From Bradyrhizobium sp. ORS 285 (lineage in GTDB: Bacteria > Pseudomonadota > Alphaproteobacteria > Rhizobiales > Xanthobacteraceae), in the NCBI RefSeq assembly GCF_900176205.1, contig NZ_LT859959.1:1240001-1304000 (forward strand): a stretch of 64,000 bases of DNA, read 5' to 3'. Under the pieces are notes generated by a model. The model had not been told where the DNA came from. It ran no database searches and saw nothing but the letters and a program-made list of their open reading frames with translations. Both the position numbers and the translations under genes were made by a program. Positions 3,777 to 32,841 of this stretch are shown piece by piece. Each line of letters opens with the position of its first letter. The first letter of the stretch is position 1.

Positions 3777-3985
3777 CCCAGCATGAAGCTTGAATCAGAG
3801 ATTGCCTCCCTTGGGAATCCGATTCTGAAGAAAAACAACGCGCTCTAGGATCGGCGTGTCTGTAGAGCATGACGTGTAGCCGGCGTCAGGGCTGCTTTGC
3901 AAAATTGCAAGGCCCCAACTGTCGACCGGCGTTCAAAAATGCCCCCGCGTATTGCCTCAGCGAGGAATGTTACCCGGACGAAGGT

Positions 3986-5633
3986 CTACGAACCGGCCCA
4001 GACCGGTCTCTGGCCGCGGCCAACTCGGTTTGGAGGGGGTGTGGGCGGGGCGGAGTGCTCATCACACGCAGCGCCGTCCACAGCCCCGGGCCGTATTTCG
4101 TCGACGGGCATGGATACGATGGCTGTCTCCGCCACTTTCCGCCGGAGGGACCGAAGCAAGCGCTGGACGATGGAATCCTGCTTGTCGCTGAACGTCAGGG
4201 GATCAATGGTGGTGAGCCGGCCCACGATGGTCAGTGCAGTGAGCTGCGGCTCGACGGCGAGCCAGCTCTCGATCGTCGCGAGATGGGGATCGAGCTTGGA
4301 CGGCATGCGAACGCGCTTTTTGTATCGCCGTTTCGGCAGGCGGTGCGTAGCCCGCACCTCGGTGGTCTTTGCCGAGTTGCCAAGCGACCGGGCGAATGAG
4401 CGCGGGTCGACCGAAGATACCTTGGCAGCTATCGCAGACCGCGCTTGCCGATCCGTTCGCCGAGCTCTTCTTGTGCCGAACGGATCGTAGCAAGCAATTG
4501 CACGGGGGCGAGAGTCCGATATGTCTCGCGCAGACGGCGCTTGATCGCCGAGGGAAGTTTCGGGTGTTCGAGTGCACGTTCGTACGGTGTAGTGGGCGGA
4601 TGATAGCGTTTGATGATCCTGGCACCCTCGCGTCGCTTCTCTTTAAGCTTGAATGACGGCTGGAAGAAGTTCACCAGCAGGCGTGCCGCCGCGGAGAGAC
4701 GTGCCATCACCCGGGCCGTCTCGACCCCGTCGAAGCGTCCGTATCCGACAAGCCGCCTGACCACCGCGCCGTTCTTCTGCTCCACGAAAGCCTGATCGTT
4801 CTTCTTGTAGGCACGTGACCGCGTGACCTCGATCTTCTGTGCTCGGCACCATGGAACGACGACGTCGTTCATGAACGCGCTGTCGTTGTCGAAGTCGGCG
4901 CAACAGATTACCCAAGGGAACAGGCCCTGTGCTCGCGTCATCGCTTCCACGACGAGGCTGCCATCGCGTGTCACCAGAGGCAAGCATTCCGTCCATCCCG
5001 TTGCGATGTCGACCATGGTCAATGTCTGGATAAACGAGCCGGCGACGCTGGTTCCACCGTGCGCAACCATGTCGATCTCGCAAAAGCCCGGCGGCGGGTT
5101 TGCCCAGTCATTGAACCTGCGGATCGGCACCTCGCGTCGAAGCGCCGAGTAGAATCCGACACGCCGCCGGCGTCCCCCAGCGGCCGCAACTTTGACGTCG
5201 ATCAACATCCGATCAATCGTTGCCGCGCTCAGAGTTGTCAGCAGCACTCGCTCGGCGCTCGTCGGCTTCAGCCGGCCATGCCGCTCCAGCGCGGGCAACA
5301 GCACTGGGATCATCGATACAAGTTACCGCAGACACGATCGGAGGCCTCCCACAGCGCGACCAGAGCGTCGCGCACGCTGGCGTATTTGCGCCGCCGACTT
5401 GTCGCTGGTTCGGATCGGCCCGTTGTCCCTTCGTCGAGTGATGGTCTGGGCCTGTCGCTTCCAGCAACCGACAGTGCCCGCACCGCGTGCTTGCGGTGCC
5501 AACCCGTCGTTGCTGTCAACTCGTCAAAGATCCTACCCTTCTCAACCCGTCCAGCCGCACGGTAGCGCTCCGCCACCGCGGCCAACATCTCGCGCCTTGC
5601 GCCCATGCTGATCCCGCTCGCCATTGGCGCCAC
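3986..5633 (-). pseudogene. rve-type (DDE) transposase, split over three frames
   Basis: One transposase appears to be spread over three minus-strand frames. These are an HTH-like N-terminus (5310-5633, 107 aa), an integrase core (4429-5313, 294 aa, with CEIDMVAHGG, CADFDNDSAFMND and FVEQKNGAVV as the Asp/Asp/Glu motifs), and a C-terminal tail (3986-4357, with RATHRLPKRRYKK). The first two overlap by ATGA. The third is in yet another frame, so at least one frameshift has inactivated it. I recognise the type as a rve-domain transposase common in rhizobia, with no firm IS family. Confidence 0.75.
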
Positions 5634-5808
5634 CGACCTGATTCGGTAACGCCGCCCCAGTCATCGGCGGAATTGTCCGGTAACATTTTCGTGTTATCCG
5701 GCGTGCAAATTTGCCCCCCTAAGCCGGGGGATCGGCGTCCAAAATTGACCCCCCGATTGTTGGCCGTAGCAGGCTGCCCGCTTCGGGTTGAAGCGGGGGG
5801 TCAGGGGG

Positions 5809-5960
5809 ATGCTGGTTGTGGAGACGATTGCGCGGATCAGGCGCGAGCACTTCGTCAAGGGCAAGACGATCAAGGAGATTGCCCGGGACCTCAAGGTCTC
5901 GTGGAACACCGTCCGCAAGGTGCTGCGGTCGGGCGAGACATCATTCGAGGAGGGCGGCCT
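5809..5960 (+). pseudogene. istA (IS21 transposase) N-terminal stub
   Basis: The frame begins MLVVETIARIRREHF and continues through the HTH KTIKEIARDLKVS to VLRSGETSFE, the start of an IS21-family IstA. It stops abruptly at 5960 where an IS256 remnant begins. Upstream DNA around 5735-5760 has an IS21-like end sequence. Only about 50 residues remain, so it is inactive. Confidence 0.7.
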
Positions 5961-6680
5961 AGATCGTGTCCCACAGAGTGGTGTAGCTGGCATGGTGGAT
6001 CACCGGGGTCATTCCGGTGCCGGCTGCGCCCGTTCTGCCGCATCTTCACGTAGGTGGCGTCGATCCACAGATACGGCCAGTCGCCTTCGATCGGACGGGC
6101 GAGAAAGGCCTTCACCTTGTCGTCGATCTCGCCACAGAGCCGGCTCACCTGGCTCTTGGAGATGCCGCTCATCCCCATAGCCTGCACGAGGTCGTCGACT
6201 GAACGGGGCGGGACGCCCTGGACGTAGCTTCCTGGATCACGGCGGTCAGCGCCTTCTCGGCCATCCGGCGCGGCTCCAGGAGGCCCGGGAAGTAGCTTCG
6301 CTTGCGCAGCTTGGGGATGCGCAGCTCGACCGCGCCGGCGCGCGTCTCCCAGGCCCGCTCACGGTAACCGTTGCGCTGCGCCCGACGCTCGGAGCTCTTC
6401 TCGCCATGGATGCTCCGGTCAGCCCGGCGACCGCTGGACTGCAAAGCCGATCATCTCGCGCAGAAGATCGGCGTCCGTGCCTTCTCCACGAGCGCGCGAA
6501 GCTTGATCATCTCGTCGGTCATAGGTTGCCCCTCGAATCAGGTTGGTGTCAGCAACCCCGGCCCAGTCGGGCAATCACCGGTGACCACAACAAAGCCGTC
6601 CACCCGCTACGGCGCTATGGGGGAGTGCGCGGGCGGACGACCTTGCTCTACCGAGTTACCCCACGCCCGGGGACACGATC
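5961..6680 (-). pseudogene. IS256-family element remnant with internal deletion
   Basis: Both ends match the full IS256 copies in this window (GATCGTGTCCC at the left, GGGACACGATC at the right). About 700 bp of the transposase gene is missing near 6020, and frameshifts break the rest. Surviving parts encode the middle and N-terminal regions of the transposase ([35 protein letters not shown]). Confidence 0.85.
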
Positions 6681-7898: not shown

Positions 7899-7984
7899 GT
7901 ATCGCTCCGGCGTAGGCCGCCTTGTTCGGCGTCACCGGCCGCCTAAGGATATGGCCTTAAGTCCAGCCTTGAGGTCATGCGGCG

Positions 7985-8380
7985 ATGCAGATGGAAGTTT
8001 TGGGCGCCGAACGGCGGCGTCGATGGAGTTATAAGGATAAGGTTCGTCTGATCGAGGAGACGATGCAGTCCGGGCAGACCGTCTGCGGAGTTGCCCGGCG
8101 GCATGGGGTGGCTCAGAGCCTGCTGTTCACCTGGCGCCGGCAGGCGCGGCAGGGCCGGCTGGGTGCCGAGGCTGTGCCGGCTATCGTTCCTGTCGCCATC
8201 GTGTCGTCGCAGGCTGACGACTTGACGAGGGTGCCATCACCACCGTCGCCATCGCGTGCCGCACCGAGCATGCGGGCCGGAACGATCGAGATCGAACTGG
8301 ACGACTGCTGCGTGCGCGTCGACCGCGACGTGGACACCGAGGCACTTCGGCGCATTCTCGACCTTTTGAGGCGGCGATGA
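7985..8380 (+). CDS. tnpA: IS66 TnpA
   Basis: 131-aa IS66 accessory protein with a Tnp_1-like helix-turn-helix (RRRWSYKDKVRLIEE then VCGVARRHGVAQSLLFTWRR). The C-terminus is a short tail (DDCCVRVDRDVDTEALRRIL). Its stop overlaps the tnpB start by ATGA, so the two are probably translationally coupled. It is needed together with TnpB and TnpC for transposition in this family. Confidence 0.92.
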   Translation: MQMEVLGAERRRRWSYKDKVRLIEETMQSGQTVCGVARRHGVAQSLLFTWRRQARQGRLGAEAVPAIVPVAIVSSQADDLTRVPSPPSPSRAAPSMRAGTIEIELDDCCVRVDRDVDTEALRRILDLLRRR

Positions 8381-8724
8381 TTCCGATCCCGAGCGACGTC
8401 AAGGTCTGGATTGCGACCGGCCACACGGACATGCGCCGTGGTATGCAGAGCCTGGCCCTGATGGTCCAGGAGATTTTGAAGCGAGATCCCCACGCCGGCG
8501 ATCTCTACATCTTCCGCGGCCGTCGCGGGGATCTGGTCAAGATCCTGTGGCATGACGGAATCGGCTTGTCGCTCTACGCCAAGCGCCTCGACCGAGGAAA
8601 GTTCATCTGGCCCTCGGTGTCCAATGGCGCGGTGTCGATCTCGGCCGCGCAGATGGCCTACATGCTTGAGGCGATCGATTGGAGGAATCCGCAGCTGACA
8701 TGGCGGCCACAGAGCGCAGGCTGA
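8377..8724 (+). CDS. tnpB: IS66 TnpB (Orf2)
   Basis: 115-aa protein of the IS66 Orf2 family. It shows the family signature VWIATGHTDMRRGMQSLAL, the FRGRRGDLVKILWHDG block and a C-terminal EAIDWRNPQ. It starts at the ATG overlapping the tnpA stop. Function within transposition is accessory and not well defined. Confidence 0.93.
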   Translation: MIPIPSDVKVWIATGHTDMRRGMQSLALMVQEILKRDPHAGDLYIFRGRRGDLVKILWHDGIGLSLYAKRLDRGKFIWPSVSNGAVSISAAQMAYMLEAIDWRNPQLTWRPQSAG

Positions 8725-8794
8725 GCAGAGATAGTTGCGGCTTTCCGGTATTTAGGGAGTTCCAACCGGCCTGATCTGTGATTCACTGCGTCGC

Positions 8795-10447
8795 ATGAAC
8801 GCCGATTGCGATGCTGGACCGGATGACGTCGTCGCCCTGAAACAGGCGTTGGGGGCCGAGCGCGCGAAGGGATTGGAGGTCGCTGCCGAGCTTGCGGCTG
8901 CCCGAGCCAAGGCATCGGAAGACGAAGCCCTGATCGCGTCCCAGAAGCTGCAGATCGCCAAGCTGAGGCATCAGATCTACGGGCAGCGGTCGGAGCGTTC
9001 ATCACGCCTGCTCGAACAACTGGCGCTGACGTTCGAAGAGCAGGAAGCTGGCGCCACCGAGGACGAGCTTGCGGCGGAACGCGCCGCGGCGAAGACCAGC
9101 ACGGTCCGCGCCTTCACGCGCAAGCGCACCGAGCGACAAACCTTCCCCGAACATCTGCCCCGCGAGCGGGTGGTGATCGAGCCGCCGACGGCTTGCGAAT
9201 GCTGCGGCAGCAATCGCCTGCGCAAGCTCGGCGAGGACGTGACGCGGACGCTGGAGGTGGTGCCGCGCCAATGGAAGGTGATCGAGACGGGGCGGGAGAA
9301 GTTCTCCTGCCGGGACTGCGAGAAGATCAGCCAGGTGCCGGCGCCGTTCCATGCCGTGGCGCGAGGATGGGCCGGGCCGAGCCTGCTGGCGATGATCATG
9401 TTCGAGAAGTTCGGTCAGCATCAGCCCTTGAACCGCCAGGCCGAGCGCTATGCGCTGGAGGGCGTGCCGATAGCGCTCTCGACCATGGCGGATGCCGTGG
9501 GGTCGGTCTGTGCGTCGCTGGACCCGCTGCTGCGCCTGGTTGAAGCGCATGTCATGACGGCCGAGCGCCTTCATGCCGACGATACGACCGTGCCGGTGCT
9601 GGCCAAGGGAAAGACTGACACGGGGCGGTGCTGGATCTATGTCCGGGACGACCGGCCGTTCGGTGGTGCGGACCCGCCGGCAGCGATGTTCTACTACTCG
9701 CGCGATCGCAAGGGCGAGCATCCGCAGGCGCATCTGGCGCGGTATGCCGGCATCCTGCAGGCCGACGCCTATGACGGCTATAACCAGCTCTATCTGGCTG
9801 GACGCGGCCCTGGACCGATCCGCGAGGCGTCGTGCTGGGCGCATGCGCGGCGCCCGTTCTTTGCCATGGCCGATCTGGAGGAGAATGCGCGCCGCAAGGC
9901 TGCGGGCAAGAAGGAGATCCCGCTTTCTCCGATCGCAATCGAGGTCGTGCGCCGGATCGACGCGTTGTTCGAGATCGAGCGTTCCATCAATGGCAAAAGC
10001 GCGCAGGAGCGTCTCGAAGCACGGCAGACGCTCAGTCGGCCTTTGACCGAAGACCTGCGGCTCTACATGCAAGAGCAACTCGCCAAGCTCGCCCGGGGGC
10101 ACGACCTTGCCAAGGCATTCAATTACGTGCTGAAGCGATGGCCGAGCTTCACGCTGTTCCTCGATGACGGTCGTGTGTGCCTCTCCAACAATGCCGCCGA
10201 GCGCGGTCTGCGAGGCATCGCCCTAGGTCGAAAATCCTGGCTCTTCTGCGGGTCTGATCGCGGCGGCCGGCGCGCAGCTGCGATGTACAGCCTGATCGTC
10301 ACCGCCAAAATGAACGGGATCGATCCGCAAGCCTGGCTGACCGATGTCATTGACCGGATTGCCGCTCACCCGTCCCAACGGCTCGACGAACTGCTGCCCT
10401 GGAACTGGACGCCTCAGGCCGCAGCGCTCTCCACCCGAGCAGCATGA
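8795..10447 (+). CDS. tnpC: IS66 transposase TnpC
   Basis: 550-aa transposase of the usual IS66 length. In order: an N-terminal coiled coil ending in [14 protein letters not shown], a zinc-binding segment with [11 protein letters not shown] and FSCRDCEK, the DDE core with [16 protein letters not shown] and [13 protein letters not shown], an insertion helix region, and the C-terminal [18 protein letters not shown] (Glu) block ending LLPWNW. No frameshift is visible. It differs from the second copy at only a few residues. Confidence 0.95.
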
Positions 10448-10641
10448 CCACGCACGTCAACAAAGTTCACCACGTCACCACCATCGCCAAGGTTGCCAAG
10501 GACCTCGGCGAAGATGAGGAATGGTTGCACGACGTCGCCAGCGAATTGGACATCGAGGATGGCGTCATCTGGGTCTACGGCGGATGCTTACCTCTCATGG
10601 TGCGGCGTTTCAGGAGAACCTTCCAGCTGGCCATCCCGTAA
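10444..10641 (+). CDS. IS66-associated small ORF, running out of the element
   Basis: A small frame overlapping the tnpC stop by ATGA and starting [16 protein letters not shown], with [20 protein letters not shown]. The same ORF follows tnpC in the inverse copy at 48 kb, so it belongs to the element. It has no stop before the right end at 10591, so its last residues come from host DNA and differ between copies. Function unknown. Confidence 0.6.
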
Positions 10642-11253
10642 AACCGTGCTTGATGAGCCGCGAAACAACATCAAAACCGACTCGCCTTGTATTCTTTCGG
10701 CCGAGACGGGACTACGCCGCACCTGCGCTGCTGCCACAAGGCCCTTGAGCGTCTGATCAACCAGCGCGACGAACCGGGGCGGCCCGGAAGCAAGGACGAG
10801 GCCATCTCCCGGTGCCGGCTTCACTATATAGCGCTGATCAGAGATGTTGAGCGCGTCAAGCGCTGACTTGAGCGCATCGAAGCCGATGGGGCCCAATGCG
10901 AGGAGCCGACTTTGCGTCTCGTGAGCAGCGGAAACGTAGAGGACAAGTCCGTCATAATACCAATGGAGATTGTATAAGGCAGTTAGGCGATCGAGAAAGT
11001 CTTGTGGGGGAAGGTCCGGCAGTCGACCTCGAACTCGCCCCTTGACCTCCGCACTAACGCTGATCCTGACATTGAGATTGTTCCCAAACTCCTGGAGTGT
11101 GGCGGAGAGATCTTGATCTAGAACGGTGTAGCTATAAGGGCCCGACGGCAGGGAGAGAGAGGCCCCGGACGAGCGTGTTACTCCGATACAGAAAAAAACG
11201 CTGAAGCAAATAAGTCTCATCGAACTGAATGCAATCGTGGATCGTGCGAGCAT
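10588..11253 (-). CDS. rhcC1: RhcC1/NolW, N-terminal secretin subunit of the T3SS (C-terminus replaced by IS66)
   Basis: Rhizobial T3SS secretins are encoded as two proteins; RhcC1 (NolW) carries the N-terminal periplasmic domains. The frame starts with a signal peptide (LICFSVFFCIGVTRSSGA), followed by N0-like (SYTVLDQDLSATLQEFGNNL) and N1-like segments (LGPIGFDALKSALDALN). It is transcribed away from nolB, as in other rhizobia. IS66 entered after codon HE: the current product ends ER with a TAA supplied by the IS inverted repeat, giving 221 aa in place of about 231. All the recognisable secretin domains are intact, so function may survive. Confidence 0.88.
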   Translation of the reverse strand: MLARSTIAFSSMRLICFSVFFCIGVTRSSGASLSLPSGPYSYTVLDQDLSATLQEFGNNLNVRISVSAEVKGRVRGRLPDLPPQDFLDRLTALYNLHWYYDGLVLYVSAAHETQSRLLALGPIGFDALKSALDALNISDQRYIVKPAPGDGLVLASGPPRFVALVDQTLKGLVAAAQVRRSPVSAERIQGESVLMLFRGSSSTVLRDGQLEGSPETPHHER

Positions 11254-11345
11254 CTCAGGCGCCTTCCGCTCATCATGGAGTTGCAGTGTGGTCTAAGCTT
11301 GAACGTCAAACGTGATCTTAAGATGACGCGAGTGGCCCGATGTCG

Positions 11346-11370
11346 GTCAGGTTTTCGTCAGCTCGCCCGC
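11346..11370 (+). promoter_or_regulatory. Candidate tts box upstream of nolB
   Basis: The plus-strand sequence GTCAGGTTTTCGTCAGCTC followed by GCCCGC fits the TtsI-binding tts box pattern (GTCAG-TT-TCG-AGCT). It lies 55 bp ahead of the nolB start in the nolW-nolB divergent region, the position where a tts box drives the T3SS operon in other rhizobia. Confidence 0.7.
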
Positions 11371-11425
11371 GTATTGACTTTGGCTGTTCCTTCGTCACGC
11401 GCCTAGGGCTTATCAAGCGAGCACA

Positions 11426-11938
11426 ATGATGCATCCCATGTTGTTGGCCGCCGCGCCGATCTCCCACAATTTAGCCGAATGTCTTCCTGTTGATTGCCTA
11501 TCGGGGGCTGTCGGCGATCAGTCGCGCTTTGGGGCGTGCTTGGCTCGGGTGGCTTCAGGTTCAGGAGAGGCTTTTCCGCCTGCGGGCAAGATCGTCGCTT
11601 CTCCAGAAGTGTTGGAGGTTGAGCGTGCGAATGTTCTAGCCGATCCGCCTGGTGTTCGAGTCCTGCAGGCTCTTTCGAGTATGTACCGCGGTGTCGCTAT
11701 TCCATCAGTGGCTGTGTCCGCTTCCGTGGCTGGTGTGCAGCCTGGGCCTGCTGCGCAACCAATCGTGTCGGCGGGGCGCGTTGATGAACGTGCGGGTGTC
11801 GAGTCTGGGGGCGAGGGGTTTGATGTGATGATGGCGAACTTGCGAGATGTTTACAGGGATGTCATTCAGGTTTCGCTGGTCTCAAAAACGACCAGTGCCG
11901 TCAGCTCATCGCTGAACAAGCTGCTATCGGCCGGCTGA
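11426..11938 (+). CDS. nolB: NolB, T3SS inner-rod/needle-associated protein
   Basis: 170-aa protein with no membrane segment. Its C-terminus (DVMMANLRDVYRDVIQVSLVSKTTSAVSSSLNKLL) is an amphipathic helical region like that of SctI/inner-rod proteins, and its place directly before rhcJ and divergent from nolW is the nolB position. The start at 11426 has a second ATG right after it. It is the first gene of the T3SS operon behind the tts box. Identification rests on order plus the conserved C-terminus. Confidence 0.85.
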   Translation: MMHPMLLAAAPISHNLAECLPVDCLSGAVGDQSRFGACLARVASGSGEAFPPAGKIVASPEVLEVERANVLADPPGVRVLQALSSMYRGVAIPSVAVSASVAGVQPGPAAQPIVSAGRVDERAGVESGGEGFDVMMANLRDVYRDVIQVSLVSKTTSAVSSSLNKLLSAG

Positions 11939-11954
11939 GGGGCGGGGCTGCGTG

Positions 11955-12797
11955 ATGAATGGGGGTGGGCGTGGTGACCGTAGATCGCTGCGACTAATTT
12001 TTGTGTGTCTTGCGCTTCCTGTTTTGCTGTCGCTGGTTGGCTGTAAGGCTGATCTCTACACCAAAATTCAGGAGCGTGAAGCTAATGAAATTTTGTCGCT
12101 TCTCCTTGGCAGGGGGGTTGATGCCACTCGTATTGTTGCCAAAGACGGATCCAGTACAATTCAGGTCGAGGAGAGGCAGCTCGCCTATTCTATTGATCTG
12201 CTCAATGTTGAAGGGCTGCCGAGGCAGAGCTTCAAGAATCTTGGCGATGTATTCAGGGGGGGTGGTCTCGTTGCCTCTCCAGTTGAAGAGCGGGCGCGTT
12301 ACGTCTATGCTCTAAGCGAGGAATTGTCGCGCACGATCAGCGATATTGATGGTGTCCTTTCAGCGCGGGTCCATGTCGTGCTGCCGAAGAATGACCTGTT
12401 GAGGCAGGATGCGACCCCGTCATCAGCTTCGGTCTTCATTCGTCATGGCTCTAGCGCGAAGCTCTCGGCGTTGTTACCGCAGATCAAGATGCTTGTCGCA
12501 AACAGCATTGAGGGACTGTCCTACGACAAGGTTGCGGTTGTTTTTGTCCCGGTCGAGCGTGCTGCAATCGGGCAACTGGCTCCCCCGACGGTACAGGCAA
12601 CAGGGGGCCCTTCGGCGCCGCTCCTCGCGCTTGCTGTGATTGGTGTCGGAGCAGTGTTCGGCATCCTAGCCTGGCTGTTGCTACGCTCTCGCTTACATCA
12701 GTTTCGTCGGTCATCGCGCAAGTTGAGCATGAGCGGAAAGGGCTTGCGTCTATCTGCTGAGCAAGGGGACGAAAAAGTGATTGATGATGCGACATAG
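11955..12797 (+). CDS. rhcJ: RhcJ (NolT/SctJ), inner-membrane ring lipoprotein
   Basis: 280-aa YscJ/FliF-family protein. A lipoprotein signal ends in LLSLVGCKADLY, with Cys as the lipidation site. The two periplasmic ring-building motifs follow (EREANEILSLLLGRGVDA; DGVLSARVHVVLP with PSSASVFIRH), and a C-terminal membrane segment at about 218-237 (LLALAVIGVGAVFGILAWLL). A GTG immediately upstream (11952) is an alternative start. It forms the inner ring of the T3SS basal body. Its 3' end overlaps nolU. Confidence 0.93.
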   Translation: MNGGGRGDRRSLRLIFVCLALPVLLSLVGCKADLYTKIQEREANEILSLLLGRGVDATRIVAKDGSSTIQVEERQLAYSIDLLNVEGLPRQSFKNLGDVFRGGGLVASPVEERARYVYALSEELSRTISDIDGVLSARVHVVLPKNDLLRQDATPSSASVFIRHGSSAKLSALLPQIKMLVANSIEGLSYDKVAVVFVPVERAAIGQLAPPTVQATGGPSAPLLALAVIGVGAVFGILAWLLLRSRLHQFRRSSRKLSMSGKGLRLSAEQGDEKVIDDAT

Positions 12798-13434
12798 TGT
12801 GGGGCCGATTTCAATGTCATCCACCAAACCAAGTTATTCGTCCATCCTCGACGACGACCGGCTCCACGAGCTTGTGGCGTCCGCAGACCTCAGTCGTTTG
12901 GCTAAGCATCTTGATCCGCGGCTTTCCAACTCTTTACTGGCTCGGCTACAGCAAAGTGCTAGGCTGCAGCCTAGGCTGGCTGCATTGCTGCTTGGGGAAG
13001 AAGTGGCGATAGGCGATACCGATTGGAGCGAGGATCTTCTTCTCGGCCATGATCCGCGCCGGGTTGCTCTGCTTGCGGGTAGCATATGGCATGCACGCTC
13101 CATTCTGAAAATGGTTGCGAGGCGCGATCTGTCTATTTTAGTGGAGTTGATTGGTTCCGACGCACATGCTTTCGCTATGCGACACTCATCCAAGGCAGTC
13201 GTGAAGGGGCCGATCGACGATCCACGGCAATTGTCAACACAGATAGAATATGACGGGCACGCTTGTCTCGGTGCTTGGCTCGAACAGGCGTCATGGCTTG
13301 ATCGTATGCGCGTGTTTGTTCGTTTGCCGGTTGGAACGGCCGCGGACAATCCGTTGGCTGAACACCGAAGCGCCGCAGGCCCTCTGCTTTCTCAAGTCAT
13401 TGCGTATTTGCGCGCGGAGGCTGATGGGGTATGA
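12781..13434 (+). CDS. nolU: NolU (SctK-like) T3SS sorting-platform protein
   Basis: Around 215 aa, with no membrane segment or signal. Identified by position between rhcJ and nolV, length close to NolU of other rhizobia, and the helical content of SctK/OrgA-type proteins. The start may be TTG 12781, ATG 12784 or ATG 12787; all overlap the end of rhcJ, and the stop overlaps nolV by ATGA. SctK proteins link the cytoplasmic ring to the sorting platform. Confidence 0.82.
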   Translation: MMMRHSVGPISMSSTKPSYSSILDDDRLHELVASADLSRLAKHLDPRLSNSLLARLQQSARLQPRLAALLLGEEVAIGDTDWSEDLLLGHDPRRVALLAGSIWHARSILKMVARRDLSILVELIGSDAHAFAMRHSSKAVVKGPIDDPRQLSTQIEYDGHACLGAWLEQASWLDRMRVFVRLPVGTAADNPLAEHRSAAGPLLSQVIAYLRAEADGV

Positions 13435-14051
13435 CAGCCGACGCTCCAACAACACCCTTGGCGCCGCAAATTCGGCCTCTTGGACCGCTTATCCCTGCTG
13501 CGCAGCTTGATCTGTGGGCGGACGCTGTGCGCGCGCAGGCCGCTGCCGATCGATATCTGCAGCGAGTTCGCGGGTGGGCACGACAGGCCTATGAGCGGGA
13601 ATGGGCGCGAGGCCGTGATGAAGGTTTGAGAGCCGGCTCGGAAGAAATGGCGAGACTAATCGCGCAAGCGACTTGTGAAGAAGCTCAGCGCAAGGCGGTT
13701 CTGGAGCGGGAATTGCCTCAACTCGTGTTCGAGATTGTTCGCGATCTGCTTGGAACGTTTGATCCGGGCGAGATACTGGTTAAGGGTGTCCGTCATGCTA
13801 TCGAGCAAAGCTATAAAAATACAGAACTTTGCCTTCATGTGGCGCCAAGCCGAGTCGACCTACTGGCTGGTGAGTTCAGCGACTATGATGGTCTAGAGGG
13901 GCGGCCGAAGGTGAAAATTGAGGTCGATCCGGCGCTGAGTGCAGACCAATGTGTCCTGTGGAGCGAGTTTGGCAATGTCGACCTTGGACTTGCGGCGCAG
14001 CTCCGCGCTCTGCGTGTCGGGTTTGGCCTATCGCAGGAAACCGAAAAATGA
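13431..14051 (+). CDS. nolV: NolV (SctL), ATPase stator/regulator
   Basis: 206-aa HrpE/YscL/FliH-family protein. The N-terminal half is a charged helical region (AYEREWARGRDEGLRAGSEE) and the C-terminal half has the family's VFEIVRDLLGTFDP then VDPALSADQCVLWSEFGNVD. Start overlaps nolU by ATGA and stop overlaps rhcN by ATGA. It binds and controls the RhcN ATPase at the base of the T3SS. Confidence 0.9.
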   Translation: MTADAPTTPLAPQIRPLGPLIPAAQLDLWADAVRAQAAADRYLQRVRGWARQAYEREWARGRDEGLRAGSEEMARLIAQATCEEAQRKAVLERELPQLVFEIVRDLLGTFDPGEILVKGVRHAIEQSYKNTELCLHVAPSRVDLLAGEFSDYDGLEGRPKVKIEVDPALSADQCVLWSEFGNVDLGLAAQLRALRVGFGLSQETEK

Positions 14052-17658: not shown

Positions 17659-17661
17659 GCC

Positions 17662-17937: not shown

Positions 17938-17948
17938 CAGAGTTGCGT

Positions 17949-19804: not shown

Positions 19805-20857
19805 GATCGGCAAAAAGAGACGTGCCAGAGAGGCTTATCAGCGATAATGAGAGAGCCTGCGTATAGGTGGCTGATGGAAACGCAGGCGTAGGTTCTTGCA
19901 AGGCGGGGTGGCGCCTGATTGCTCTTGTTGCCGCGATGGGCCACAGGAGCAACGCGGTGGATTATTGTCAGGAGTCAGCAGTATTGTGTGGATCGGGCCG
20001 TGCGAGGTGCGGTGCGATTATGTCCCAAATTTGCGGCCCCCGCGATACCGATGATCGCTTGAACCGCTGACCTTGCCCCTAAATGTCTTTCTCAGGCCGG
20101 AGCCGTTCGGGCAGGTGGATGTGCCATTTGGGCGGTGGTAGCTGCGGAACTCCTTAGTTACGGCCGCCTCCCTCCTGAACTGGACGGCAAAGGTCAGCCC
20201 GTGTTCAACGCGCGCTGCGGACGATCGCCTCTCGCATTGTTGAGTGACAAAGGCGCATTCTTGTGGATGTTCATCTGGCCGTTCTTTGGGACATTGACGC
20301 CTCGCAAGCTTAGCTTTCTCGGTTCAGGCCAGACGGATGAACGACCACAGCTAGTTCTCGAAGCCGATGTCGATCAGCGAACAACTATTCCTGCACTAAC
20401 GCGGAGACAAAATTAGTCTCGCAGCCACTCAAGTGTCGACGGTTGCGGCAGTGCACCTTGAGCGTTCGACAAGTCTTTGCGGAACATCGTTGATTGCACT
20501 AATACAATTGCGCTTTGGCATTGTTAGGTAGGAGTCTGTCGCAGAAGCAGCTTTCGAGAATCTGACCATAGTCGTGTAATGCTTATTGTTAGTCGAGCTT
20601 TGGTTGGCATCAAACCGCACAGTACAGCAATTTGCGCTGTATTGCTCAACTGGCAATCTCAGGGCCTGAGACTGACTATTCAACGCGTAATGCTGATATT
20701 GCAGCGGTGGATTAGTCGCCACAGGACTTGCGTTCGGCTAAGGATGATTGTTTTATGAAAAGCGAAACGATACTTGACGCTGGCAAAGCGTCAAGACGCT
20801 CGATGCGTGTCCGACACGTCCCAGCCCCGCAATTGTATCTAGAGGAAGACGAGCCCC
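19805..20857. other. About 1 kb with no recognised gene between rhcU and virK
   Basis: Only short frames are present. A minus-strand frame (20429-20722, 97 aa) has no recognisable features. A tts-box-like sequence faces left at 20301-20329. I see no clear terminator after rhcU. Confidence 0.5.
20301..20329 (-). promoter_or_regulatory. Degenerate tts-box-like sequence
   Basis: Shares the 14-base core AAGCTTAGCTTTCT at the same internal position with the tts box of the nopM-like gene (36788-36816), but lacks the GTCAG half. It points left, where no gene was recognised, so it may be a relic. Confidence 0.35.
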
Positions 20858-21298
20858 GTGAAATCAAATGTAAAGTCCATATTCATCCTGCTTATGATGT
20901 TTTCTGCAAGCGTTAAAAGCACGGTCGTAAGTGCGGATGACGCATCACCCAAATACATTGAGGTGCTCAATGCCCTTCAGGCGGGCAAGAACGTTAAATT
21001 GTTGCTCGACATGAGCCGCTGTAATCCCACCGAGGGCGGAAAGCCAAGCTCAGCTACACTTGCCGGGTTGGCTGTCAGCGCCTTTAGGGTAACCGTCCAG
21101 AATGGCATAAGCTTCTCTAACGCGCACCAAACGGTTGACAATTCGGGGCATGCCGTGACGGAATTTATTCGTCATAGTCTCAGTCGGGAGGGCAAACTGA
21201 CTGTGCGGGCCTCCAAGCTCGTCGTTGGAAGCAATGAGCTAGTGAATCAAGGTGAATTCACTTGCGAAGTGCCGGACGGGGCACGGTTTATTTGGTAA
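20858..21298 (+). CDS. virK: VirK-family secreted protein
   Basis: 146 aa with an N-terminal signal peptide (SIFILLMMFSASVKSTVVSA, cleavage near residue 26). The mature part matches the VirK family, first described next to the Agrobacterium vir genes and also found in rhizobial symbiosis regions: ALQAGKNVKLLLDMSRC, then LAVSAFRVT and HAVTEFIRHSLSREGKLTVRAS. Two Cys residues (in MSRCNP and FTCEVP) may pair. The start is GTG with an AGAGGAAGA-like site upstream. Role unknown. Confidence 0.82.
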   Translation: MKSNVKSIFILLMMFSASVKSTVVSADDASPKYIEVLNALQAGKNVKLLLDMSRCNPTEGGKPSSATLAGLAVSAFRVTVQNGISFSNAHQTVDNSGHAVTEFIRHSLSREGKLTVRASKLVVGSNELVNQGEFTCEVPDGARFIW

Positions 21299-21523
21299 GC
21301 TGCAGGATTACGTCGCGTTGGCCTTGACCGTTTTAACAGTAAGGCCGGTATCGTAAGCCCATAGATGCTGCTCTCGACAGGGGGTGACGGCCAAAATGAT
21401 ATTGGCCGTCGTTTTTGGACGCTGACCTGCCACCGATATGTCATCCAGCAGCATTTAGAGTCCGAATGGGTTTGCAGTGAGGCCGAGCTTTGGACCACCC
21501 AGAACTAGAGTTTTGCGCCCTGA

Positions 21524-21690
21524 TCACGGTGGCGGGCTGGTTGCGCCATCGTGGTTTTGCAGCAGAATCGGCGGTTTGTTGCCGATTGCGCCGTGCGGCC
21601 GTTCTTCGTTGTAGTACCTGCGCCAAGTCTCCACTGTTTCCTCGGCATCCGCAAGCGTCAGGAAGCAATGGGCAATTGAGACATTCCTCC
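21524..21690 (-). pseudogene. IS3-family OrfB C-terminal fragment
   Basis: Minus-strand remnant encoding EETVETWRRYYNEERPHGA then IGNKPPIL, the usual end of an IS3 (IS407-type) integrase. The rest is missing because it abuts another IS3 copy at about 21690. Confidence 0.75.
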
Positions 21691-21722
21691 CGGGTTTAGC
21701 GAACAGCAGATCATCTGGATTT

Positions 21723-21947
21723 TTGAAGGAGCACGAGGCTGGCGTTGCGGTCGCCGATCTGTGCCGCAAGCATGGCGTGAGCGACGCCAGCATTTACAAG
21801 TGGAAGGCCAAGTTCGGCGAAACGGACGTCTCGGAGGCCAAGCGGCTGAAGACGCTGGAGGACGAGAATACACGGCTGAAGCGGCTGCTGGCGGACGCGA
21901 TGCTGGACAATGCTGCCCTGAAGGATCTCCTGGGAAAGAAGTCGTGA
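21723..21947 (+). pseudogene. IS3 OrfA, broken at its 5' end
   Basis: Encodes the HTH and leucine-zipper part of OrfA (VADLCRKHGVSDASIYKWK; LEDENTRLKRLLADAML; stop after LGKKS). Compared with the 36.9-38.1 kb copy, the start codon region is missing and a small insertion shifts the frame just before 21723, so the apparent start there is internal. Confidence 0.75.
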
Positions 21948-21996
21948 CGCCCGCGGCGAAGCGGAAAGCTGTCGTACATCTCGTGGCGTTCACGGG

Positions 21997-22899
<903 letters not shown>

Positions 22900-22917
22900 A
22901 ACTTGGGGGCAAGGTCA

Positions 22918-24045
22918 TCCTCATTGAAGTGCCGTCAAAAGGCGTCGAAGCGGCGTTGGTGATCTTCACACCCATTCATTGGCTCCAGTTCAAGCTAAGC
23001 CCGCTCCGGTGGCTTAATCCTAACGGCCGGCCGGGAAAACCAGCCCCCTCCCAGCTCAATGACCACACGCAAGCTGCGTCGCGCTCCCACCGGACTGCTT
23101 ACAAAATCGTTAATGCAACGACCAAAGACGCTTGATCCTTCCCCGGCGTCAGATTGTAAGTCTTCTGGCAAGCCGCGACACTTCCAGTCGTGTTCAACCC
23201 TTTCTGACAGGTAGTGACCAGTGCGACCGTTTGCACCCCATAAATTCCACGACTGCGCCGCATCGCGCTACTGCGTTATTCTTCCAGTAGGACGATGCTC
23301 CACGTCGATGATTTGCGGAGCGGCGAACCCTAACCCACCATGTGTCACGAGGGCGCAAAATGCGTCACGAGGAGTTCGCTGGCGCTCGCCAGTGCTAGGT
23401 CCGCATCAGGAGTGTTTCGGGCTAGCAAAAAGTCCTCACTACGCGCGAGTCTATTGGGAGGCGCTATCGACGCCCGATAGCTGCATTGTTGAAGCACGGT
23501 GTGCATCTCAGCAGATCAGGGGGGCGAGTAGGTTGATCGCGGTTTTCTAATCATTGCATGGTCATGCTTGACTTGATGACTTCGGATATATGGGGGAAGG
23601 GGCGACTGAGGCAGTCGCGGTGCGACGGCTCCTCTATGAAGAGTGGCAATCGTCAAGCCCCCCTAGTCGGGGTATTGCGATCTTTGATGCGGGGGCGGAA
23701 CAGCTTCTTCCCAGTCTCCGCTTCTAAGTGGCAATCATGCTCTCACTCGCGCTATTCAGCAACAGTCAGGACAGATGACAGCTCTACTGGCGACATTCGT
23801 TGAACAACAATTTCATCAAAACGAGAGGCGAGTTTTGATCGGCGCCGTGGTTCCGAGAATTTCGTCCTGCGTGATGTGTGTTCCTAATCATCCACTCAGT
23901 GGTGCCGGCCCAACATCGTCGCGAGCACATCGCCCGTGTATGCATTCAATGACGGGTCTCGACCATTGCGTGAAAGGTCGAGGATCATCTATTTCGCACG
24001 CATGCGGTCCAAACCGAACGCTCGGGATGAGCGCCGCGAGCGGTG
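22918..24045. other. 1.1 kb without a recognised gene upstream of rhcC2
   Basis: Only short, unconvincing frames on either strand. Around 22974-23003 there is half of a tts-box-like pattern (CAAGCTAAGCCCGC) on the plus strand; the GTCAG half is absent. Nothing else was recognised. Confidence 0.5.
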
Positions 24046-24085
24046 TCAGCTAGATCCTGGCAGTTTCAGCTAGATCCCGGAAGTT
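24046..24085 (+). repeat. Tandem 20-bp repeat directly upstream of rhcC2
   Basis: Two adjacent imperfect copies: TCAGCTAGATCCTGGCAGTT and TCAGCTAGATCCCGGAAGTT (two mismatches). It lies about 95 bp before the chosen rhcC2 start and could be a regulatory site or the end of a lost element. Confidence 0.75.
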
Positions 24086-24179
24086 ATTGGCGCAACATCG
24101 GCTGGCTAGCCGATCGAACTCTGAAGGCAGCACTCACTTGAACTTCTTTAACAAAAAACACGTCGCTCACGACACGTTG

Positions 24180-25583
24180 ATGGTCGCTGGCGCCTCTCGT
24201 CGCATCGCGGTGCGTCTCCGGAGCGCGCTGTTTGTAGCTTGTATGCTGGTTCCAGTCTCGGGCATGGCTCAAACATCGAGTAGCGGAGACCGGCCACATG
24301 CTGCGCTTGACAGCGACACTGGTACGCTCAACATCACCTCCTCACAGGGGAGGACAGTTCGTCTCAAATCGCCCGCAGCGAGCATCTTTGTTGCCGATCC
24401 TGCAATTGCGGATTACCAAGCCGCGTCGAACACTACGATTTTCGTGTTCGGTAAAAAGTCCGGCCGAACAAGCCTGTTTGCCCTCAATGACAAGGGGGAG
24501 GCTCTCGCCGAGCTGGCAGTCGTCGTCACCCAGCCGATTGAGGATCTCCGAGCCGCGCTGAAGGCCGAGGTCGGCGACTATCCAATTCAGGTTAGCTACA
24601 CGCCGCGTGGCGCGATCCTTAGCGGTACGGCGCCCAGTGCAGATGTTATCGAGGCGGCTAGGAAGGTTACTGAGCAGTTTCTCGGAGCGGGCGCACTGGT
24701 TGTGAACAAAATCAAGGTCGCCGGCTCTCTGCAGGTGAATCTTAGCGTAAGAGTTGCAGAAGTCTCGCGTAGTGCTGTGAAAGATCTCAATATAAACTTC
24801 ACCGCATCCGGCCCAAACGGCGCTTTCCTAGTGACCGGCAAAGGCGGTGGCTCTGGCGCAGCCGCCGGCGGTGGTACAATCGGGATCGGCTTTAGTGCTG
24901 GAAATGCAAATTTGAGCGCGGTTCTCGACGCCCTCGCAAGTGAGCACCTCGCCTCAATTCTGGCTGAGCCGAATTTGACCGCAATGTCAGGCGAATCCGC
25001 AAGCTTCCTTGCAGGAGGCGAATTTCCCATTCCGGTGATGCAGGATAACCGGCAGGTTTCTGTCCAGTTTCGTCAGTTCGGTGTAAGCCTCGACTTCGTT
25101 CCGACAGTTCTCAACAATAATCAGATCAATGTTCGAGTGAAGCCAGAAGTTAGCGAACTGTCGAGTGAGGGCGAAGTTAAGATCAATGGCATGTCGGTCC
25201 CCGCTCTTTCCACCCGACGGGCGAGCACGGTGGTCGAGCTCGCTAGCGGTCAGAGCTTTGCGATTGGCGGCCTCATCAGACGTAACTTTAACACTGATAT
25301 CGGTGAATTCCCCTGGCTCGGTGATGTGCCGATCCTGGGTGTGCTTTTTCGCTCATCATCGTTTCAGAAACACGAAACCGAGCTGGTAATTATTGTCACG
25401 CCATACATCGTGCGGCCGGCATCGACCCCAAAGAAAATGAGTACGCCGAGCGAGCGCATCTCACCTCCCTCAGACGCTGGACGAATCCTGACGAATACGG
25501 TGGCCCGACCGCCTCGGGACCGCGATGCGCCTCGTACCAAGGCACCGGGATTGACCGGGAGTGCCGGCTCTATCCTCGAATGA
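24180..25583 (+). CDS. rhcC2: RhcC2, CpaC-type secretin of the T3SS
   Basis: About 467 aa from the ATG at 24180, which puts a good signal peptide (LRSALFVACMLVPVSGMAQT) near the N-terminus; in-frame TTG codons upstream (24087, 24138) are alternatives. The N-terminal domain is of the pilus-secretin type (IFVADPAIADYQA; TIFVFGKKSGRTSLFAL), then a BON-like segment, then the secretin core (ILAEPNLTAMSGESASFLAGGEFPIPV; FAIGGLIRR; PWLGDVPILGVLFRS; VIIVTPYIV). In rhizobia this protein works with RhcC1 to form the outer-membrane pore. Confidence 0.9.
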   Translation: MVAGASRRIAVRLRSALFVACMLVPVSGMAQTSSSGDRPHAALDSDTGTLNITSSQGRTVRLKSPAASIFVADPAIADYQAASNTTIFVFGKKSGRTSLFALNDKGEALAELAVVVTQPIEDLRAALKAEVGDYPIQVSYTPRGAILSGTAPSADVIEAARKVTEQFLGAGALVVNKIKVAGSLQVNLSVRVAEVSRSAVKDLNINFTASGPNGAFLVTGKGGGSGAAAGGGTIGIGFSAGNANLSAVLDALASEHLASILAEPNLTAMSGESASFLAGGEFPIPVMQDNRQVSVQFRQFGVSLDFVPTVLNNNQINVRVKPEVSELSSEGEVKINGMSVPALSTRRASTVVELASGQSFAIGGLIRRNFNTDIGEFPWLGDVPILGVLFRSSSFQKHETELVIIVTPYIVRPASTPKKMSTPSERISPPSDAGRILTNTVARPPRDRDAPRTKAPGLTGSAGSILE

Positions 25584-25593
25584 GAACAGCCAA

Positions 25594-26259
25594 ATGATCT
25601 TGCGACAAATCTGCCAATTGATCGGCGTTGCGGCAACATTGGTTGGCTGCGCAGATACAGCTCCCGACCATTACGGACCTGGCGAGCAATCGGTTAAGGT
25701 CGAGCAAAAGAGCCGCGTTTTGTTCTTAAAAAGCCTTCACCGCCCCGAAGCGCATCGGCTGCGGAGGTTCATTGCGACTGCCGGCGGGGGGCGGCCGGAT
25801 GTACTGCATGTCGATGTCACCGGCTCGGAACGCCTCACGGCGCAAGTGGCGCACGAGGCCCTCGCTATGGGCATTGCTCCGTACAACATTCGGCTTTCTA
25901 ACCTTCCTCCGGATCACTTCACTCATTCAATGGTGAGGATCGAGGTGACCACCTTCCAAGTCTATCCTCCGCCGTGTCCGTCGCTTTCTATCGTCGGCCC
26001 TACCGTGAACGACAATGCTTTCGACTCGACGCTTGGCTGCTCGACCAGAAACAATCTTGCAACGATGGTCAATGACCCGGTCGATTTGCTGGAGAATCGA
26101 TCAATCATGCCGAGTAATGGCGAACGTGCTGCCAATCCTCTCGCCCGCGACGGTACCTTCAGACCGTCCAGCAGGATGAACGGAGAAGACGGCCCTCGCG
26201 ACAAGCTAGCGCCGGAAGCTTCCGGCGCTACGGCGGGGGACGGCCGGCCAATTCGGTAG
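25594..26259 (+). CDS. CpaD-like lipoprotein next to rhcC2 (Y4xK-type)
   Basis: 221 aa starting MILRQICQLIGVAA with a lipobox LVGC (Cys at about residue 19). The body resembles CpaD-type pilus lipoproteins (VTGSERLTAQVAHEALAMGI then IRLSNLP; VRIEVTTFQVYPPPCP). It begins 10 bp after rhcC2 ends, so the two are probably cotranscribed. Probably a pilotin-like or stabilising partner of the secretin; that role is inference. An IS256 begins 10 bp after its stop, so the 3' part of the operon may be lost. Confidence 0.8.
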   Translation: MILRQICQLIGVAATLVGCADTAPDHYGPGEQSVKVEQKSRVLFLKSLHRPEAHRLRRFIATAGGGRPDVLHVDVTGSERLTAQVAHEALAMGIAPYNIRLSNLPPDHFTHSMVRIEVTTFQVYPPPCPSLSIVGPTVNDNAFDSTLGCSTRNNLATMVNDPVDLLENRSIMPSNGERAANPLARDGTFRPSSRMNGEDGPRDKLAPEASGATAGDGRPIR

Positions 26260-26269
26260 CGCAGCAGGT

Positions 26270-27696
26270 GGTCGTGTCCCCGGGCGTGGTGTAACTCGGT
26301 AGAGCAAAGCCGTCCGCCCGCGCGCTCCCCCATAGCGCTGTAGCGGGTGGACGGCTTTGCGGTGGTCACCGGCGATTGCCCGGTAGGGTCGGGTTGCTGA
26401 CACCAACCTGATTCGAGGAACCACCGATGACCGACGAGATGATGAACCTTCGCGCACTCGTGGAGAAGGCCCCGGACGCGGATCTTCTGCGCGAGATGAT
26501 CGGCTTTGCAGCGCAGCGGTTGATGGAGATGGAAGTCGCCGGGCTGACCGGGGCGGCCTATGGCGAGAAGAGCTCCGAGCGTCTGGCGCAGCGCAACGGC
26601 TACCGTGACCGGACCTGGGAGACGCGGGCCGGTTCGGTCGAGCTGCGCGTTCCCAAGCTGCGCAAGGGAAGCTACTTCCCGGGCTTCCTGGAGCCGCGCC
26701 GGATGGCCGAGAAGGCGCTGACCGCCGTGATCCAGGAAGCCTACGTCCAGGGCGTCTCGACCCGTTCGGTCGACGACCTCGTGCAGGCGATGGGGATGAG
26801 CGGCATCTCCAAGAGCCAGGTGAGCCGGCTCTGTGGCGAGATCGACGACAAGGTGAAGGCCTTTCTCGCCCGTCCGATCGAAGGCGACTGGCCGTATCTG
26901 TGGATCGACGCCACCTACGTGAAGGTGCGCCAGAACGGGCGCATCGTCTCGGTCGCGGTTATCGTCGCGATCGGCGTCAACAGCGACGGCCGACGCGAGG
27001 TGCTGGGCATGGACGTCGGCCCGTCCGAGGCCGAGACGTTCTGGACCGCGTTCCTGCGCAAGCTCACACGCCGTGGACTGCGTGGCGTGCAGCTCGTGAT
27101 CTCGGATGCTCACGAGGGCATCAAGGCCACCGTCGCCAAGGTGCTCAATGCCACCTGGCAGCGTTGTCGCGTTCACTTCATGCGCAACGCTCTCGCTCAT
27201 GCCGGTAAGAGCGGGCGCCGCGTGGTCTCCGCCTTCATCGCCACGGCCTTTGCCCAGGACGACGCCGAGGCAGCCAAGGCGCAATGGCGCAAGGTCGCCG
27301 ACCAGATCCGTCCCAACGTGCCCAAGCTCGCCGCCCTCATGGATGAGGCCGAGCCTGACGTGCTCGCCTATATGAGCTTCCCGGCACAGCACCGCGCCAA
27401 GCTGCACTCGACCAATCCAATCGAGAGGGTCAATGGCGAGATCAAGCGCCGCACCGAGGTCGTCGGCATCTTCCCAAACGAGGAAGCAATCGTCCGTCTC
27501 GTCGGTGCGATCCTGCTCGAGCAGAACGACGAGTGGGCCGTCCAGCGCGCCCGCTACATGACTCTGGAAACCATCGCGCCTTTGAGCGATGATCCCATTG
27601 CTGGCCTGCCCGCCGTGGCAGGCTGACCAGCTCGGCCCGCACCGGAATCGCCCGGTGATCCACCATGCCAGCTACACCACTCTATGGGACACGATC
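26270..27696 (+). mobile_element. IS256-family element, copy 1 (1427 bp)
   Basis: Ends GGTCGTGTCCC (left) and, inverted, GGATCGTGTCCC (right). Flanking bases CAGCAGGT (26262-26269) and CCGCAGGT (27697-27704) could be an 8-bp duplication with one change. A second full copy, inverted, is at 44584-46010. Confidence 0.88.
26427..27626 (+). CDS. IS256-family transposase
   Basis: 399-aa DDE transposase of the Mutator/IS256 superfamily. The catalytic residues are in [30 protein letters not shown] (followed by the family's [11 protein letters not shown]) and [16 protein letters not shown]. Complete frame, usual length. It differs from the copy at 44.6 kb at only a few residues. Confidence 0.95.
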
Positions 27697-27995
27697 CCGC
27701 AGGTTTGCAATGATACCGTAAGGCCTAAGCCGACTAGAGGTGCTAAATTGATCCTCAATGCATGGCACAGGCGGCATGGTTTCGATTGTCGTAGCGAGTT
27801 TGCAATAGGCCGGAGATTATTTGGAGCCGCGGTGAAATGTTTTACCTGTGGGCACTTCGTCGCTTGCAGACGTTTGTTCCTCGGTTAGAGCTCCCGCGTC
27901 ACATTCGTAGCGGGTGACCTTGCCCCTAGTATCAACCGGCGTTCAAAATTGACCCCGCGTATTGCCTCAGCGAGGATGTTACCCGGACGAAGGTC

Positions 27996-29643
27996 TACGA
28001 ACCGGCCCAGACCGGTCTCTGGCCGCGGCCAACTCGGTTTGGAAGGGGGTGTGGGCGGGGCGGAGTGCTCATCACACGCAGCGCCGTCCACAGCCCCGGG
28101 CCGTATTTCGTCGACGGGCATGGATACGATGGCTGTCTCCGCCACTTTCCGCCGGAGGGACCGAAGCAAGCGCTGGACGATGGAATCCTGCTTGTCGCTG
28201 AACGTCAGGGGATCAATGGTGGTGAGCCGGCCCACGATGGTCAGTGCAGTGAGCTGCGGCTCGACGGCGAGCCAGCTCTCGATCGTCGCGAGATGGGGAT
28301 CGAGCTTGGACGGCATGCGAACGCGCTTTTTGTATCGCCGTTTCGGCAGGCGGTGCGTAGCCCGCACCTCGGTGGTCTTTGCCGAGTTGCCAAGCGACCG
28401 GGCGAATGAGCGCGGGTCGACCGAAGATACCTTGGCAGCTATCGCAGACCGCGCTTGCCGATCCGTTCGCCGAGCTCTTCTTGTGCCGAACGGATCGTAG
28501 CAAGCAATTGCACGGGGGCGAGAGTCCGATATGTCTCGCGCAGACGGCGCTTGATCGCCGAGGGAAGTTTCGGGTGTTCGAGTGCACGTTCGTACGGTGT
28601 AGTGGGCGGATGATAGCGTTTGATGATCCTGGCACCCTCGCGTCGCTTCTCTTTAAGCTTGAATGACGGCTGGAAGAAGTTCACCAGCAGGCGTGCCGCC
28701 GCGGAGAGACGTGCCATCACCCGGGCCGTCTCGACCCCGTCGAAGCGTCCGTATCCGACAAGCCGCCTGACCACCGCGCCGTTCTTCTGCTCCACGAAAG
28801 CCTGATCGTTCTTCTTGTAGGCACGTGACCGCGTGACCTCGATCTTCTGTGCTCGGCACCATGGAACGACGACGTCGTTCATGAACGCGCTGTCGTTGTC
28901 GAAGTCGGCGCAACAGATTACCCAAGGGAACAGGCCCTGTGCTCGCGTCATCGCTTCCACGACGAGGCTGCCATCGCGTGTCACCAGAGGCAAGCATTCC
29001 GTCCATCCCGTTGCGATGTCGACCATGGTCAATGTCTGGATAAACGAGCCGGCGACGCTGGTTCCACCGTGCGCAACCATGTCGATCTCGCAAAAGCCCG
29101 GCGGCGGGTTTGCCCAGTCATTGAACCTGCGGATCGGCACCTCGCGTCGAAGCGCCGAGTAGAATCCGACACGCCGCCGGCGTCCCCCAGCGGCCGCAAC
29201 TTTGACGTCGATCAACATCCGATCAATCGTTGCCGCGCTCAGAGTTGTCAGCAGCACTCGCTCGGCGCTCGTCGGCTTCAGCCGGCCATGCCGCTCCAGC
29301 GCGGGCAACAGCACTGGGATCATCGATACAAGTTACCGCAGACACGATCGGAGGCCTCCCACAGCGCGACCAGAGCGTCGCGCACGCTGGCGTATTTGCG
29401 CCGCCGACTTGTCGCTGGTTCGGATCGGCCCGTTGTCCCTTCGTCGAGTGATGGTCTGGGCCTGTCGCTTCCAGCAACCGACAGTGCCCGCACCGCGTGC
29501 TTGCGGTGCCAACCCGTCGTTGCTGTCAACTCGTCAAAGATCCTACCCTTCTCAACCCGTCCAGCCGCACGGTAGCGCTCCGCCACCGCGGCCAACATCT
29601 CGCGCCTTGCGCCCATGCTGATCCCGCTCGCCATTGGCGCCAC
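27996..29643 (-). pseudogene. rve-type transposase, split over three frames, copy 2
   Basis: Identical arrangement to the copy at 4.0-5.6 kb: N-terminal frame 29320-29643, integrase core 28439-29323, C-terminal frame ending near 28367. Because the left-end indels differ, the last frame stays open a little further (to 27885). Shared frameshifts show that decay came before duplication. Confidence 0.75.
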
Positions 29644-29818
29644 CGACCTGATTCGGTAACGCCGCCCCAGTCATCGGCGGAATTGTCCGGTAACATTTTC
29701 GTGTTATCCGGCGTGCAAATTTGCCCCCCTAAGCCGGGGGATCGGCGTCCAAAATTGACCCCCCGATTGTTGGCCGTAGCAGGCTGCCCGCTTCGGGTTG
29801 AAGCGGGGGGTCAGGGGG

Positions 29819-29970
29819 ATGCTGGTTGTGGAGACGATTGCGCGGATCAGGCGCGAGCACTTCGTCAAGGGCAAGACGATCAAGGAGATTGCCCGGGACC
29901 TCAAGGTCTCGTGGAACACCGTCCGCAAGGTGCTGCGGTCGGGCGAGACATCATTCGAGGAGGGCGGCCT
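29819..29970 (+). pseudogene. istA N-terminal stub, copy 2
   Basis: Same about 50-residue IstA start as at 5809-5960. Cut off at 29970, where the sequence changes to an IS3 orfB fragment on the opposite strand. Confidence 0.7.

Positions 29971-30340: not shown

Positions 30341-32841
<2,501 letters not shown>

Follow-up and report, generated by a model that had tools for sequence, protein, structure and literature searches.

Direct copies of a dead, nested insertion-sequence mosaic bracket type III secretion genes in Bradyrhizobium sp. ORS 285

Results

Copies and borders of the repeat unit

The window analysed here, a stretch of 64,000 nucleotides (1240001-1304000) of the 7.80-Mb single-contig genome of Bradyrhizobium sp. 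ORS 285, carries a block of type III secretion system (T3SS) genes lying between two direct copies, hereafter A and B, of a repeat built from insertion sequences (ISs). A and B belong to a set of four copies in the genome, each a dead, nested IS mosaic, and I lean towards the view that the mosaic was spread by recombination or gene conversion among resident copies. In what follows, small coordinates refer to the window and larger numbers are genome positions; C and D are the further copies in the genome, and IS-X is the dead element with an rve-type transposase gene.

BLASTN aligns A (3912-5960) with B (27922-29970) in direct orientation at 99.61% identity over 2050 aligned bases, with 6 mismatches and 2 gaps. 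The initial annotation of the window had placed a 2036-bp direct repeat at 3925-5960 and 27935-29970; the repeat, of about 2.04 kb, is real, but its left edge lies some 5 bp farther out, at 3920 in A and 27930 in B, and is an IS21-type TG terminus. A duplication limited to two copies, as then supposed, is ruled out by the presence in the genome of C (1182447-1184485, inverted) and of D (1155794-1157806, truncated, with the left flank of A included). The two copies had also been said to end at the same base. Positions 5960 and 29970 were rejected as the right border of the unit, however, since B and C are homologous beyond them, up to 30295 and then over 32980-33133 (window coordinates), a 2685-bp IS21 element having split the two stretches in B; at 33133, B, C and the other copies of the IS3-family element cease to match. 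The right edge of the unit is an IS3 terminus; A matches B no farther than 5960 because A is cut there by an internally deleted IS256-type element.

On the left, three different contexts are joined at the same IS21-type terminus: a repeated sequence common to A and D, a unique one for B and a unique one for C. The flank repeat of A has counterparts at 1223605 and 1238649, which continue into DNA found nowhere else in the 187-kb stretch 1136000-1323000. A and D show 100% identity across 2013 bp that take in the left flank, as if by plain duplication. A target duplication belonging to each copy, which the initial annotation regarded as the mark of independent insertion, was not seen around the whole unit in either B or C when the flanks were compared by eye.

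Other genomes of the genus were searched for relatives of the unit. Some match was obtained in 136 of 195 genomes, and among the matches listed there was neither a whole unit at high identity nor the single-copy ancestor whose search had been advised. The parts occur separately, IS-X at up to 90% and the IS21 piece at up to 88% identity among the matches listed, which also include alignments at 69-71% across both the IS-X and the IS21 parts in five genomes (G170, G010, G107, G148 and G188). The exact istA/IS3 junction gave 0 matches in a contig database, which may omit the window's own genome. Empty sites were sought with the left flanks of B and C, each in the 195 genomes, and the own genome alone matched. 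The left flank of C (1184486-1185486) is a 1-kb stretch with, by eye, a regulator-like reading frame, found in the own genome only of the 195.

Anatomy of the unit and lesions of its transposase

Judged from its sequence, the unit is a nested mosaic consisting of a 27-bp IS21-type repeat, a dead IS-X of about 1.75 kb, the left end of a second IS21 element and an IS3-family fragment (Table 1). It resembles the IS21 family, of which the window holds intact members, in having terminal repeats and the start of istA; it differs in being without most of istA, istB and the right terminus, so that terminal repeats and a 5' istA piece are all that it has of a whole IS21 element. A 257-bp relative of the IS21 part stands alone at 1141848-1142104, where more of istA follows. 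All six occurrences of the IS21-type motif in the window fall in A or B. The 2685-bp element in B is bordered by a 6-bp target duplication, GTGACC; an IS66 label for it was dropped, its istA and istB placing it in the IS21 family. No target duplication was seen around the IS256-type element at 5962-6680.

Table 1. Features of copies A and B and of their surroundings (window coordinates)
Feature	Position	Strand	Remarks
IS630-family element in the repeated sequence forming the A/D left flank	2800-3847	-	
A, outer terminal repeat, 27-bp IS21-type, left edge of the unit	3920-3946	+	junction and motif; like repeats border IS-X in relatives
A, IS-X, dead, right end truncated	3948-5691	-	rve-type transposase gene on the minus strand; at most 90.8% to intact Bradyrhizobium plasmid elements
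A, second IS21 element, left end (two terminal repeats) and 5' istA	5692-5949	+	90% to 1141848-1142104
A, IS3-family fragment, first 11 bp	5950-5960		continued in B and C
IS256-type element cutting A, internally deleted	5962-6680		full relative at 26270-27697 is of the IS256 family
T3SS block between A and B	10588-26259		SctC N-terminal part, NolB, YscJ, SctL, ATPase, FliN-type, SctR, FliQ-type, Bac_export_1, Bac_export_2, VirK, secretin, CpaD-like
B, terminal repeat, 27-bp IS21-type	27930-27956	+	diverged from that of A
B, IS-X	27958-29701	-	three lesions of A and an extra 1-bp insertion
B, second IS21 element, left end and 5' istA	29702-29959	+	
B, IS3-family fragment, first part	29960-30295	-	homologous to C and four further places; full relative is of the IS3 family
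IS21-family element inside the IS3 fragment of B	30296-32979	+	istA 30437-32020, istB 32017-32841
B, IS3-family fragment, remainder up to the end of copy matching	32980-33133	-	98.7% to C

Lesions in the IS-X transposase gene were scored against the annotated 469-amino-acid coding sequence of an intact relative; homologues, and the open reading frame (ORF) in one related locus (L081), are nearer 550 amino acids, the upstream portion lying outside the comparison. A, B and C have in common a 4-bp deletion, a 1-bp deletion and a 2-bp insertion. D, which is without the 5' part of the gene, has the shared 1-bp deletion and the 2-bp insertion. That the copies carry the same frameshifts, as initially annotated, is thus borne out. 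Because these lesions and the IS21/IS3 junction are common to the copies, the accompanying proposal that copying happened after the death of the transposase is supported as well. Independent inactivating mutations, which had been named as evidence to the contrary, were seen once, in the form of a further 1-bp insertion in the transposase of B only, within its divergent left part; the three other lesions are shared.

Origin of the copies

To see how the copies arose, the distribution of the differences between A and B was considered. Four are substitutions (3921, 3924, 3939 and 3942) and two are indels (3966 and 4033), with zero differences in 4034-5960. Six changes in about 113 positions versus 0 in 1927 correspond to p = 2.5e-8 (Fisher), an optimistic value since the boundary was picked after the data had been seen. 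Relative to both A and B, C has lost 3 bp and carries one substitution, at 5465-5503. In my own reading of an alignment of the six sites with relatives, the changed state is in A at three sites and in B at three; the left ends would therefore have been diverging for longer than the rest. Such a pattern is what exchange among resident IS copies yields. A simple segmental duplication describes A and D only: between A and B the differences are clustered, the left flanks are unlike and the left edges are a mobile-element terminus. Of the two routes first envisaged, recombination, if it took place among dead copies, is consistent with these features, and duplication of one dead block is not supported in that form; recombination among dead IS copies seems the better description of the mechanism, ahead of a single segmental duplication. 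The earlier observation was largely right, its borders and copy number excepted.

The order of events that I infer is as follows. IS21-type elements with IS-X just inside a terminal repeat would have inserted at several sites of the region. One copy would then have been damaged further, acquiring the transposase lesions, a second IS21 element in its right end and a junction at which istA is fused with an IS3-family fragment. This damaged body may then have spread among the resident copies by homologous recombination or gene conversion, each copy retaining its own left flank and B retaining its diverged left end. Later, an IS256-type derivative presumably cut A and another IS21 element split B. 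Spreading by recombination is favoured by the fact that the unique left flanks of B and C meet the same terminus as A and D, by the lesions and the istA/IS3 junction common to A, B and C, and by the precedent of recombination between direct IS copies in other Bradyrhizobium strains (PMC8692435). Several points weigh against it. A body with an IS3 terminus on its right also requires exchange on both sides, and the 100% likeness of the A and D left flanks requires a plain duplication. Neither an intermediate nor a single-copy relative turned up among the matches listed from the 195 genomes or, for the junction, in the contig database. Moreover, four of the six A-B differences are in the 27-bp terminus, which is variable among IS21-type carriers, and the contrast within IS-X itself therefore comes down to two indels.

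In an alternative history, a larger segment including the unit may have been duplicated, its flanks then being trimmed to IS termini by IS-mediated deletions; transposition is known to give rise to deletions that begin at IS termini. The identity of A and D across the left flank is as expected from such a history, and so is the absence beside the unit of the right half of A's flank repeat, which is present at 1223605 and 1238649. I nevertheless regard it as unlikely, since it leaves unexplained six differences in about 114 bp versus none in 1927 bp and demands separate, precise trimming at B and at C.

Mobilization of the dead unit in trans, from its IS21-type left terminus, by a resident IS21 element is less probable still. 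Every copy does start at the TG terminus, in three different contexts, and nearby IS21-family elements have intact-looking istA and istB together with target duplications; in B. septentrionale (genome G070), an IS21 element that contains IS-X seems to have moved as a whole. Yet B and C show neither an IS21-type right terminus nor a target duplication around the whole unit, the unit ends on the right in an IS3 terminus, and the A/B mosaic is left unexplained. Finally, near-identical 2-kb repeats are difficult to assemble, but that misassembly of this IS-rich region made one of the copies is very improbable given a single contig of completeness 100, the private differences of B and C, the private later insertions of A and B, and the unique flanks of B and C.

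IS-X and the ends of IS21 elements

Plasmids of B. septentrionale, Bradyrhizobium sp. 2S1 and others carry intact elements about 90-91% identical to IS-X, whose proteins are annotated as DDE-type or transposase-family. The IS-X transposase had no NCBIfam match above cut-off, and its Pfam rve match was just below cut-off. Of 8000 candidates scored in a protein search, 7985 were kept; the 120 of these that were listed went by the names transposase, integrase or hypothetical protein.

Among 16 close copies, the IS21-type motif lies within 45 bp of the left end in 13, of the right end in 13 and of both ends in 11, these copies not being independent events; the motif was present in 206 of 20000 random 45-bp stretches from the same and neighbouring loci. 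The 16 are what is counted of 17 given loci, one having no recognized end, and L034 was omitted as the same place as L055. One sequence-pattern search for IS-X copies gave 2 matches, both in one plasmid and neither giving both ends. Relatives standing inside IS21 terminal repeats are L081-L088, L033, L035 and L036.

At six loci of the B. septentrionale genome, IS-X is lodged in the same IS21 element, which has istA and istB, and is flanked there by the outer and the second repeat; the left flanks of the six loci differ. With one locus taken as the reference, three of the five others share 2467-2469 bp on the right; another shares 2410 bp and matches again past a further stretch of about 1.77 kb, which looks like a second IS-X, and the remaining one shares just 467 bp. 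Since shared right sequence stands behind different left flanks, the IS21::IS-X composite appears to have moved as a unit.

Of 14 more distant relatives, 5 have the exact motif at an estimated end, 2 of them at both, and 9 have it at neither. Homing to IS21 ends would therefore apply to no more than the close group. A fuzzy motif search at the ends of these 14 was discarded in favour of exact matches, 1091 of 5000 random stretches (22%) matching by chance.

IS4321 and IS5075 home to the ends of Tn21-type transposons, that is, to the terminal repeats of other mobile elements. Close IS-X relatives may resemble them, being mostly in IS21 terminal repeats, and differ in that IS-X encodes an rve-type transposase (on a weak, sub-cut-off Pfam match), the recombinase of IS4321 and IS5075 being of the IS110 type. 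A literature search of titles and abstract openings gave nothing pertinent on homing to IS21 ends. A tentative hypothesis, for which the odds seem to me a little short of even, is that the close IS-X group is an rve-type IS that homes to IS21 terminal repeats and is spread by being carried inside IS21-family elements, and that a dead composite, homogenized by gene conversion, is now the closest recombination bracket of the T3SS genes. In that case, an element parasitic on transposons would influence how stable a symbiosis-type locus is. If IS-X truly targets IS21 ends, it would show how an IS can spread by insertion where the carrier need not be disabled. That IS-X is nested in IS21 ends was less expected than the rest of these results and is worth a second look.

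The T3SS block and its deletion interval

The initial annotation had the T3SS genes bracketed by the two copies, and the T3SS-family ORFs do lie between A and B. The first of them, with SctC N-terminal domains, is at 10588-11253 on the minus strand, and further bracketed ORFs match YscJ/FliF, the T3SS stator, FliN C-term, Bac_export_3 (FliQ-type) and a CpaD-like lipoprotein; ORFs 12781-13431 and 15379-15912 gave no match. The rhc gene names of these ORFs are presumed. The secretin at 24087-25583 has pilus-type domains, and the CpaD-like ORF follows it; the name rhcC2, given to it in the initial annotation, is kept as putative.

Pairs of repeats bracketing the T3SS block were counted in the 187-kb stretch (BLAST pairs of at least 300 bp and at least 95% identity, some overlapping), giving 20 direct and 20 inverted. 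A-B, near-identical, direct and on both sides of the rhc genes, has the shortest direct interval, at 24,010 bp. Repeats longer than 2 kb make up five of the other direct pairs, and all five are longer than A-B. One RecA-type crossover between A and B could delete these 24,010 bp with the T3SS block. The loss first proposed, of about 24 kb with the entire secretion apparatus in the window, is to be qualified in one respect: such a crossover would remove the window's T3SS block and keep rhcV. The gene for this export gate protein, SctV/RhcV (FHIPEP), is at 1145418-1147358, beyond the window and 104.6 kb away from the 8-kb core used as query. The core was compared with 240 of 265 genomes of the genus (25 being without a score), in which the best other near-full-length matches were at 79% over about 7.8 kb. 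In 11 of 11 relatives hand-picked from the 106 of the 240 genomes with a core match, the distance between the core and the FHIPEP gene (as assigned by bit score) is 9.4-17.5 kb. By this comparison the island is stretched or rearranged in ORS 285. The text of PMC9569860 has no mention of rhcC2, secretin or rhcV.

In Bradyrhizobium symbiosis islands, homologous recombination between direct IS copies deletes the rhc cluster at 2.2 x 10^-4 in culture; IS fragments can also act in rhc deletion, and duplication occurs by the same route (Arashida et al. 2021, PMC8692435). ORS 285 resembles those strains in having direct IS copies around rhc genes. It differs in that the copies are a dead mosaic of several ISs, just 24 kb apart, and in that the deletion is a prediction by analogy with those strains. 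The deletion hazard would accordingly be a new instance of a known phenomenon, ordinary for the genus. The A-B pair gives a precise, testable 24-kb deletion interval for the T3SS, and suggests that wholly dead IS remnants remain substrates for recombination.

Three other features of the window were recorded. A 2.7-kb IS66-family element (around 8795-10447) is present in two inverted copies, 7899-10595 and 48042-50737, 99.8% identical and flanking the T3SS block; a crossover between them would invert about 40 kb. On the plus strand, 69-2744 is an 891-amino-acid ORF with a C48 (Ulp1-type) peptidase domain and DNA repeats spaced by about 120 bp at 1487-1828. On the minus strand, 34290-36728 is an 812-amino-acid ORF with leucine-rich repeats and a NEL E3 ligase domain.

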